Positions 824-27,410 of a stretch of DNA of 44,267 bases are shown here, in pieces. Source of the DNA: Aeromicrobium sp. (GTDB lineage: Bacteria; Actinomycetota; Coriobacteriia; Anaerosomatales; Anaerosomataceae); NCBI GenBank assembly GCA_015351705.1, contig JADIIM010000021.1:1-44267 (forward strand), given 5' to 3'. The translations under genes were made by a program, and so were the position numbers. Positions within the stretch are counted from its first letter, which is position 1; the number at the start of each line of letters is the position of its first letter. The notes below the pieces were generated by a model. It did no database searches. It was not told the origin of the DNA and saw only the letters and a list, made by a program, of their open reading frames with translations.

Positions 824-1870
824 GTGAAGATCGGGTTCATGGTCAACGACATAGCCTCCGAGGAGGCCGGCTACTCGACCACACGGCTCGCCGTGACGGC
901 GATCAACCGCGGGCACGAGGCATGGGTGCTCTCGGCCGGCGACTTCGCCTACGACCCCGACGAGAAGATCCGCGCCCGGGCGGTCCACGCACCCAAGGCG
1001 CGCTACACCTCGGGCTCGGCGTACCTGGCCGATCTGCGCGGCACCAAGGCACGCGCGGAGCGCATCACGGTCGACGACCTGGACGTGCTGATGCTGCGCA
1101 GCAACCCGGCCGAGGAAGTCAGCCGGCGGCCGTGGGCGCAGAACGCCGGCATCGACTTCGGACGCATCGCCATGCGCAACGGCGTCATCGTCTTGAACGA
1201 CCCCAACGGTCTGGGCAAGGCGCTCAACAAGATGTACTTCCAGCTCTTCCCCGAGGAGGTCCGCCCGCGCACGCTCATCACGCGTGACCGCGCGGAGATC
1301 AAGGCGTTCGTGAAGGAGCAAGGCGGGCGGGCCGTACTGAAGCCGCTCCAGGGCAGCGGCGGCCAGGGCGTGTTCATGGTCGACCACGAGTCCACCAAGA
1401 ACCTGAACCAGATGGTCGAGGCGCTCACGCGCGACGGCTACGTGATCTGCCAGGAGTACCTCGAGGCGGCCGAGGAAGGCGACACCCGGCTGTTCATGAT
1501 GAACGGCCAGCCGCTACGGTACAAAGGCAAGTACGCCGCCTTCCGGCGTATCCGCCAGGGCGACGACATCCGCAGCAACGTCCACGCCGGAGGCGCCATC
1601 GCACAGGCGACGATCACCGAGACGCACCTGCGTATCGCCGAGATCGTCCGCCCGAAGCTCGTCGCCGACGGCATGTTCCTCGTGGGGCTGGACATCGTGG
1701 GCGACAAGCTCATGGAGATCAACGTCTTCTCGCCCGGCGGACTCGGCAGCGCGCAGAAGTTCGAGAAGGTCAACTTCGCCAACGCCGTCATCGACGCGCT
1801 CGAGCGCAAGGTGGAGTACGCCGCGTACTACCGCCGCAACTTCAGCAACCTGGCGATGGCCACGCTGTAG
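824..1870 (+). CDS. RimK/glutathione-synthetase-like ATP-grasp ligase
   Basis: A 348-residue ATP-grasp enzyme that would activate a carboxylate as acyl-phosphate and join it to an amine or thiol. Visible features are an N-terminal Rossmann-like region (MKIGFMVNDI), a second region with LRSNPAEE (91-98) and NDPNGL (125-130), the ATP lysine in VLKPLQGSGGQG (171-182), a QEY segment (210-212) and the metal-binding end VGLDIVGDKLMEIN (287-300), including D290, E298 and N300. GTG start with an AAGG-containing Shine-Dalgarno. The overall look is that of bacterial glutathione synthetases, but no glutamate-cysteine ligase is nearby. With the preceding amidohydrolase-like gene it may form a small amide or peptide-modifying pathway. 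Substrate unknown. Confidence 0.85.
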   Translation: MKIGFMVNDIASEEAGYSTTRLAVTAINRGHEAWVLSAGDFAYDPDEKIRARAVHAPKARYTSGSAYLADLRGTKARAERITVDDLDVLMLRSNPAEEVSRRPWAQNAGIDFGRIAMRNGVIVLNDPNGLGKALNKMYFQLFPEEVRPRTLITRDRAEIKAFVKEQGGRAVLKPLQGSGGQGVFMVDHESTKNLNQMVEALTRDGYVICQEYLEAAEEGDTRLFMMNGQPLRYKGKYAAFRRIRQGDDIRSNVHAGGAIAQATITETHLRIAEIVRPKLVADGMFLVGLDIVGDKLMEINVFSPGGLGSAQKFEKVNFANAVIDALERKVEYAAYYRRNFSNLAMATL

Positions 1871-22852: not shown

Positions 22853-23260
22853 TCACCTGTCCCGGTCGGCTTCGAAGTCGAGTGCGACGGAGTTCATACA
22901 GTACCGCAGGCCGGTCGGCGGCGGACCGTCCGGGAACACGTGGCCAAGGTGGGACCCGCAGGCGCCGCACCGGATCTCGGTGCGCATCATCCCGTGGCTC
23001 GTGTCCTGCAGCTCCTCGACCGCATCAGGAGCGACCGTCTCGAAGAAGCTCGGCCAACCGCAACCGGCATCGAACTTCGCGTCAGAGCGGAACAGGGCGT
23101 TGCCGCAACCACGGCAGCGATACAGGCCCTCGTCAGCCGTATCGAGATACACCCCGGTGAACGGACGTTCGGTGCCGGCTTCGCGCAGCACGCGATACTG
23201 CTCGGAAGTCAGCGCCTCGCGCCACTCATCGTCCGTGCGGGAGATCGGATATCGGCCCAC
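22853..23260 (-). CDS. msrB: Peptide-methionine (R)-S-oxide reductase
   Basis: A 135-residue enzyme reducing methionine-R-sulfoxide in proteins. Catalytic C121 is in RYCMNS, a candidate resolving C67 in AGCGWPSF, and zinc ligands are C49, C52, C98 and C101. GTG 23260 follows GGAGG and sits 1 nt after the msrA stop, so it is translated with msrA. Its catalytic residue is an ordinary cysteine, unlike its partner's. Confidence 0.96.
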
Positions 23261-23261
23261 G

Positions 23262-23945
23262 CTAGCCAACCTCCGCAACACTGGACGCCCGCGCGGGGAC
23301 GGCGCGACGCAACCGGCCCGCGGCCTCCTCAGACAACCCGAGCGCAGCCAGGTCCGCTTCGAGCTCGGCGCGGGAGCCCCATCCATCGAGGTAGCCGTTC
23401 ACGCGCGCCGCGGCTGTGGATTCCCGCAGGTCCGCAGGGTCCGGGTACATGCGCGCGAACTCGGCAGACAACGTGCGGTCGGTGCGCAGCCGGTACTTCT
23501 GGTGGTAGTCCTCGGCCAGATAGAAGCGCTCGTGCGGCCGGACCTCCGTGAACACACGGCCGAGCCGGGCAGCGGCTCGCTCGGCCGATGCGACCGCACT
23601 CAGCCGCTGCGCTTCGTCGTGCGCGAAGATCCGCGACGCGTACTGGACGGAGTGCGGAGGCGCCGTGGGCCTGTGTGCTGCCCAGAAGACATCGAGCAGT
23701 TCCTCGTACGTGATGACCGCGGGGTCGTAGTCGACCTGAAGCGTCTCGGTGTGATCGCCGATCGAGTGATAGGTCGGATCCGGCGTCGTTCCGCCTGCGT
23801 ACCCGACGCGTGTATGCACGACGCCTGCAAGCTGCCCGAACCGGGCATCGGGGCCCCAGAATCAACCGAGCGCGAACGTCGCGGTGGCCAGGGGGCCGTG
23901 TGGTGCCGAGTCCAGAGGCGGCAGGGACCGATGAGCGTGCAGCAT
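23262..23945 (-). CDS. msrA: Selenoprotein MsrA: peptide-methionine (S)-S-oxide reductase with in-frame UGA
   Basis: A 227-residue enzyme if UGA codon 28 (23862-23864) is read as selenocysteine. The frame is family-like on both sides: ATATFALG before, FWGPDARFG after, then HTRVGYAGG and HSIGDHTE. The UGA falls exactly where the catalytic Cys of the GCFWG motif belongs. ATG 23945 has AAGGAG 6 nt upstream, so translation clearly begins before the UGA. A SECIS-like hairpin with GU in its loop follows. The chain has no cysteine at all, hence no resolving Cys; recycling would need an external thiol. A nonsense mutation is the alternative, but codon choice and reading frame look maintained. Standard gene callers would give a truncated product starting at GTG 23819. 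One nt before msrB. Confidence 0.88.
23823..23864 (-). promoter_or_regulatory. Candidate bacterial SECIS element of msrA
   Basis: Starts with the UGA (23864-23862). The apical stem GCCCG (23846-23842) pairs with CGGGC (23838-23834) around a GUU loop; the loop begins 20 nt after the UGA, inside the usual 16-37 nt range, and has the GU expected for SelB. A lower helix can form from CUG (23859-23857) with CAG (23827-23825) and GGGC (23856-23853) with GCUU (23832-23829). Fold drawn by hand. Confidence 0.7.
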
Positions 23946-23960
23946 GCGTGCTCCTTTCGT

Positions 23961-25895: not shown

Positions 25896-27410
25896 TTGCA
25901 TCGCCGTAGCAGCTTCCGCCTCGTGGTGACGCTTGCGCTCGCGCTTGCCCTCGTCCCTGCATCCCCCGCGATGGCCGCCATGTCGCGCACCCTGGTCATG
26001 GCCCGCGCCACCACCTGGGCCGACGCGGTGATCCCCTACAGCCAGATCGGCTGGGCCGATCTCGATGGCACGATCGTGACCTCGCCGTCCGCAGGGTGGC
26101 GTCGCGACTGCTCCGGCATGGTATCGATGGCCTGGAACCTGCCGCGCCCCGGAGCGTCCACTCGCACGCTGGCCGGCTACGCCGAGCGCATCGAGAAGGA
26201 GGCCCTCCAGCCCGGCGACATGATGCTCAAGGAAGGGTCGCACGCACTGATCTTCGGCGGCTGGGTCGACGACAGTCGCGCGGAGTACTGGGCCTACGAG
26301 ATGAGCTCGTCCACGTCGCAGAGGACCGACCCGCCTGACGGTACGGTCCGCCGCCGGACGCCCTATCCGTTCTGGTCGAACGACGTCGGCTATCTCCCCT
26401 ACCGTCTGAAGGGCATCACCGGCAGCATCGACTACACGCCGTACGTGACCGCGGTAGAGGGCCTGAACCGCTACGCGACCTCGGTGGCCGCGTCCCGCCA
26501 GGCGTTCGCCGATGGCTCGGCATCGACGGTGGTGCTCGCCTCCGGAGAGAACTGGCCTGACGCGCTCGGCGCGGCCGCCCTTGCTGGCGCGGTCCAGGGC
26601 CCTGTGCTCCTCACCCGCCCGGGAAGCATACCCGCTGAGGTACAGGCAGAGATCAGGCGTCTGGGCGCGAGCGAGGTCATCATCGTCGGCGGACCGGGCG
26701 CGATATCCGCCGATGTCGAGAACGCGTTGACCGCCGTCGTGGGCTCCACGGCCGCCGACCCGCCGCCCGCCATGCGCATCGGCGGCTCCGACCGCTACGA
26801 GACGTCCCGAATGATCGCCGCCGAGGTCGCCCGCCGCACCGCAGAGGGCGCCCGCGCGGCGGACCGGACGGTCTTCATCGCCACCGGGACGAGCTTCCCC
26901 GATGCGCTCGCCGCCTCACCGATCGCCTACGCACACGTCAGGCCCATCGTGCTCACCCCGCCCGATGTTCTCGGAGCAGACGCGCGCTCGTCCCTTGAGG
27001 GGCTCGAAGCGACAAGCGCGGTCGTTCTCGGCGGACCGGCAGCGGTGTCCGCCGATGTCGAGGCCGCACTGGCCGAGATGCTCGGAGATGCCGGCGTCCG
27101 GCGGCTGTCGGGCTTCGACCGCTACCGGACCGCACTGGCGATCGCCCGGTACGGGATCGATGAATGCGGGTTGACCTACGGTGGACTCGCACTCGCCAAC
27201 GGCACCGGCTTTCCCGACGCGCTCGCCGGCGGCGTGATGGCCGGTCAGCTGGGCACGCCACTGCTGCTCACACCTGCCGAGCGGCTGAACGGTCACGTCG
27301 CCGACCTGCTGTCCGCGAACCGCGTCGCGGTCGGTCATGTGCGCTGTCTCGGCGGCACCGCGGCCATAGGCACGGTCGCGCGCGAGACCGTCGCCCTGAT
27401 GCTGCAGTAG
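25896..27410 (+). CDS. Secreted NlpC/P60-like protein with three cell-wall-binding repeats
   Basis: A 504-residue exported protein. Signal peptide of about 28 residues (PASPAMA-A). The N-terminal catalytic-like domain has DCSGMVSMAWNLP (C72) and GSHALIFGGW (H116), the Cys-His arrangement of NlpC/P60 or CHAP-like amidases and endopeptidases. Three CW_binding_2 (PF04122) repeats follow, each with a ...RY.T... start, a (N/S)-(W/F)-PDAL motif and a (V/C)LGG or VGGP end (about 193-280, 290-385 and 395-500). These repeats bind anionic cell-wall polymers in clostridia and related bacteria. TTG 25896 follows GGGAG. A Cys is also present at 418 and near the C-terminus. Confidence 0.85.
   Translation: MHRRSSFRLVVTLALALALVPASPAMAAMSRTLVMARATTWADAVIPYSQIGWADLDGTIVTSPSAGWRRDCSGMVSMAWNLPRPGASTRTLAGYAERIEKEALQPGDMMLKEGSHALIFGGWVDDSRAEYWAYEMSSSTSQRTDPPDGTVRRRTPYPFWSNDVGYLPYRLKGITGSIDYTPYVTAVEGLNRYATSVAASRQAFADGSASTVVLASGENWPDALGAAALAGAVQGPVLLTRPGSIPAEVQAEIRRLGASEVIIVGGPGAISADVENALTAVVGSTAADPPPAMRIGGSDRYETSRMIAAEVARRTAEGARAADRTVFIATGTSFPDALAASPIAYAHVRPIVLTPPDVLGADARSSLEGLEATSAVVLGGPAAVSADVEAALAEMLGDAGVRRLSGFDRYRTALAIARYGIDECGLTYGGLALANGTGFPDALAGGVMAGQLGTPLLLTPAERLNGHVADLLSANRVAVGHVRCLGGTAAIGTVARETVALMLQ

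Follow-up and report, generated by a model that had tools for sequence, protein, structure and literature searches.

A methionine sulfoxide reductase A gene with a predicted catalytic selenocysteine in a Coriobacteriia-like member of the Actinomycetota

MsrA (PF01625) is listed among the prokaryotic selenoprotein families in selenoproteome surveys (PMC13188914, PMC2398784). The enzyme of Clostridium (Alkaliphilus) oremlandii (PDB 4LWJ-4LWM, 4U66 and 7C13) contains one selenocysteine (Sec) and no Cys, and its activity exceeds that of its Cys form 20-fold; it is reduced by glutaredoxin and not by thioredoxin, and its helical domain is required (PMC4333827). The 2-Cys E. coli and bovine MsrA proteins (PDB 1FF3 and 1FVA) possess the catalytic Cys together with resolving Cys residues, and they lack the helical domain.

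The stretch of DNA analysed here (44,267 nucleotides, hereafter the window) carries an msrA gene whose product is almost certainly a selenoprotein of the 1-Cys (here 1-Sec) type, with its single in-frame UGA predicted to be decoded as selenocysteine by means of a 3' stem-loop (Table 1). An earlier note on this DNA had placed MsrA sequence upstream of an apparent start at 23819, beginning from a well-placed ATG and interrupted by one UGA at the catalytic Cys of the GCFWG motif. This description proved correct: the frame is preceded by a suitably spaced ribosome-binding site, the TGA occupies the exact slot of the catalytic Cys, and no other internal stop is present. The mechanically called ORF starts at the GTG at 23819, 42 codons late, and leaves out the active site, as had been anticipated for automatic annotation. 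The product matches the PMSR family of Pfam (E=2e-38, 132 bits) and, barely over the cut-off (24.6 versus 23.7 bits), at the C-terminus, the domain PF20939, which Pfam names "Selenoprotein methionine sulfoxide reductase A, helical domain". These two matches, together with the occurrence of the same frame around the TGA in 17 of 30 related genomes and in dozens of other bacteria, establish that the MsrA frame around the TGA is not due to chance. The GTG of msrB lies one base past the msrA stop and msrB also adjoins msrA in the relatives; the two genes probably form one operon. Elsewhere in the window (25896-27410, plus strand) a large protein is encoded, with repeated segments that by eye resemble cell-wall-binding repeats.

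Table 1. Features of the msrA-msrB locus in the window
Feature	Position	Strand	Description
msrA	23262..23945	-	227 aa, predicted selenocysteine at codon 28; ends VAEVG*, TAG stop
msrA catalytic domain	~residues 20-155	-	
msrA C-terminal helical domain	~residues 155-227	-	
In-frame UGA	23862..23864	-	Codon 28, catalytic position of GUFWG; aligns with C. oremlandii MsrA residue 16
SECIS-type hairpin	23833..23847	-	UGCCCG(GUU)CGGGCA; stem of 6 bp closing a 3-nt loop that begins with GU, -8.6 kcal/mol
Ribosome-binding site	23951..23957	-	AAAGGAG, 5 nt ahead of ATG 23945
msrB	22853..23260	-	SelR domain with its catalytic Cys within RYCMNS; probable GTG start

Among solved structures, the best matches of the window MsrA are those of C. 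oremlandii MsrA, in both domains. The alignment covers residues 18-207 (E=1e-53) and places the predicted Sec at the same residue. Like the C. oremlandii enzyme, the window MsrA has a C-terminal helical domain and no Cys among its 227 residues, and hence no resolving Cys. The active-site Tyr, Glu, Gln-Tyr, His and Tyr (residue list in PMC4333827) are all retained, as Y59, E67, Q101-Y102, H148 and Y151. Unlike C. oremlandii, the host belongs to the Actinomycetota (Coriobacteriia-like) and its msrA adjoins a Cys-type msrB; the N-terminus of the window MsrA is also about 12 residues longer. With the E. coli and bovine enzymes it has the catalytic domain and the GCFWG motif in common, but the match stops near residue 152.

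Scanning bacterial and archaeal genomes yielded 80 relatives, in 71 of which the motif codon was read. The codon at the catalytic position is mostly TGA, in a minority TGT or TGC, and never any other; the distinct sequences comprise 59 with TGA and 18 with TGT/TGC, drawn from several phyla. The comparison with Cys-MsrA homologues that had been proposed as a check aligned the TGA with the catalytic Cys. In the relatives the MsrA frame is conserved both before and after the TGA, and 40 of 54 TGA homologues have no Cys after the Sec. A pseudogene or sequencing error, whereby a TGC or TGT had mutated or been misread to TGA and only a truncated, inactive protein would be made from the GTG at 23819, is extremely improbable on this evidence: the same TGA recurs in independent genomes, from within the family and the order as well as from several phyla, the frame lacks any other stop, the ribosome-binding site and the conserved adjacency of msrB are in place, and the hairpin described below covaries. 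The absence of selA, selB and selC from the assembly is the one observation in favour of such an error.

The earlier note had described the Cys-to-Sec replacement as known in a few bacterial and algal MsrA proteins, which is an understatement, since Sec forms are frequent within this subfamily. In an unrooted tree of 72 sequences the window MsrA groups with those of Coriobacteriia; three Sec/Cys changes are needed, of which well-supported branches force at least two, and the tree, being unrooted, does not give their direction. One TGA-containing MsrA from the Halanaerobiaceae (L094:3984-4601) lies beside Cys-type Halanaerobium sisters and lacks a clear SECIS hairpin in the common register; it may be in the course of switching, or it may use another kind of SECIS. 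Tentatively, and with slightly less than even confidence, we suggest that the helical-domain 1-Sec MsrA subfamily is widespread and mainly Sec-using across many phyla, that its Cys forms (Halanaerobium, Haloarcula, Thermoplasmata) derive from Sec ancestors and have lost the SECIS hairpin, and that the cysteine-free enzyme is wholly selenium-dependent.

The hairpin of the window msrA, the loop of which lies 20 nt after the UGA, falls within every published limit for bacterial SECIS elements (loop of 3-9 nt with a G in the first two places, stem of 4-16 bp, distance of 16-37 nt from the UGA and a free energy of -7.5 kcal/mol or lower; PMC13188914). By itself this fit is weak evidence, because about 11% of the TGAs in this GC-rich window are followed by some model-fitting hairpin with at least 6 pairs; the exact geometry is found after just 1 of the 1091 TGAs in the window. 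Generic folding (65 nt from the UGA) was no more stable than that of shuffled sequences, and the hairpin was therefore tested by covariation. A stem of at least five contiguous pairs in this register is present in 69% of the 59 distinct TGA sequences, compared to 6% of the 18 Cys sequences and 9% of synonymously recoded TGA sequences; several of the remaining TGA sequences contain a wider-loop version. Among 30 TGA sequences that were selected for this register and are related by descent, so that the counts are not independent events, three pairs changed on both sides (30 such cells, a value reached by 0 of 500 shuffles), and the paired fraction dropped from 96% to 59% or less in slid controls. 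The distinctive feature is thus only the specific covarying hairpin, not general folding. Rfam models detected tRNAs only, in the window and two further loci tested.

The organism's own draft assembly consists of 60 contigs and is estimated to be 96.75% complete. It encodes SelD (370 bits), itself a UGA-containing gene with the active-site loop MSTKAG-U-AAKWG (contig C29, L157:2082-3110, minus strand) and a SECIS-like hairpin. A formate-dehydrogenase-like molybdopterin oxidoreductase, whose FdhA match is below the family cut-off, likewise contains a UGA, within RIUHSS (QARI-U-HSS; contig C14, L165:1400-4650, minus strand). Hairpins that fit the SECIS model occur downstream of the UGA in all three genes (selD, FdhA-like and msrA). 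A variant genetic code, in which UGA is read throughout as another amino acid, would also account for an in-frame UGA that, judging by its conservation, is read through. Nevertheless, UGA terminates 13 of the 36 genes in the window and selD itself, homologues invariably have Cys as the aligned residue, and the UGAs that were detected belong to known selenoprotein families, such that a variant code is hardly conceivable. Replacement of Cys by Sec at the catalytic position, the main claim of the earlier note, is the best reading and is strongly supported, since TGA and TGT/TGC are exchanged at this one codon, the covarying SECIS hairpin accompanies TGA but not Cys codons, and the genome has SelD and FdhA-like UGA genes.

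The accompanying prediction that the organism would possess SelA, SelB, SelC and SelD was borne out directly for SelD only; selA, selB and tRNA-Sec (selC) were not found in the draft assembly. One match over the cut-off to the tRNA-Sec model, on contig C48, is a tRNA-Ser(TGA) according to ARAGORN, and the matches to the SelB model were judged by sequence and size to be pieces of EF-Tu, IF-2, EF-G, LepA and TypA. Among 30 relatives, selA is present in 26 and selB exceeds the cut-off in 26 (17 of 18 same-family relatives have both); the two genes are adjacent and lie downstream of selD, with tRNA-Sec near selB, just beyond it, in 8 of 9 loci read. The organism's selD contig (C29) carries an exopolyphosphatase gene and tRNA-Leu(TAA), then several genes before selD, and after selD a PIN-domain gene and an unknown gene that is truncated by the end of the contig. 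It is collinear with the relatives gene by gene, and one of them (G001) continues in the same order to selA about 5 kb further on. Because the sel genes of the relatives lie downstream of selD, and the organism's own contig ends before that point within a conserved gene order, the missing selA, selB and selC are likely an assembly or binning gap. A gene from the right flank of the sel locus in another relative (G005) has no match in the organism's genome, which is consistent with such a gap without proving it.

True loss of selA, selB and selC, with the UGA genes as recently decaying relics, would agree with their absence from a nearly complete assembly and with a related genome, G013, which retains a TGA-containing msrA (C1:114645-115064) with neither selA nor selB above the cut-off. 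We consider it very unlikely: the SelD, FdhA-like and MsrA frames are intact save for the UGA, all three are followed by SECIS-model hairpins, and the contig breaks off inside a gene, short of where selA would be expected from G001.

Under the selenoprotein reading, the stem-loop just 3' of the UGA would recruit SelB with Sec-tRNA-Sec, and the ribosome would insert selenocysteine. The selenolate is expected to attack methionine-S-sulfoxide, with release of methionine. As the window MsrA lacks any cysteine, an outside reductant is needed for the oxidised selenium; this partner would most likely be glutaredoxin, as in C. oremlandii. MsrB, probably co-translated with MsrA, would handle the R-sulfoxide. 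The only glutaredoxin match in the genome is of the Cys type (CPYC; contig C46, L163 ~888-1140, plus strand), as opposed to the selenoprotein glutaredoxin with which the C. oremlandii MsrA is paired, according to a title cited in PMC4333827. Downstream of this gene lies a frame that by eye resembles the catalytic subunit of ferredoxin-thioredoxin reductase, and this pair is a possible route of reductant to MsrA.

The finding is genuine and of a kind already known: it is a further example of a known selenoprotein family and not a new family. Coriobacteriia are unmentioned in the selenoproteome review text searched, and a literature search on Coriobacteriia or OPB41 with selenocysteine or selenoproteins returned nothing relevant. 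The locus would thus add a Coriobacteriia-like lineage to the users of Sec-MsrA. Automatic annotation would remove the active site and label the gene an N-terminally truncated MsrA. The series of Sec and Cys forms, some with the hairpin and others lacking it, would provide a natural test set for the evolution of SECIS elements under coding constraint.
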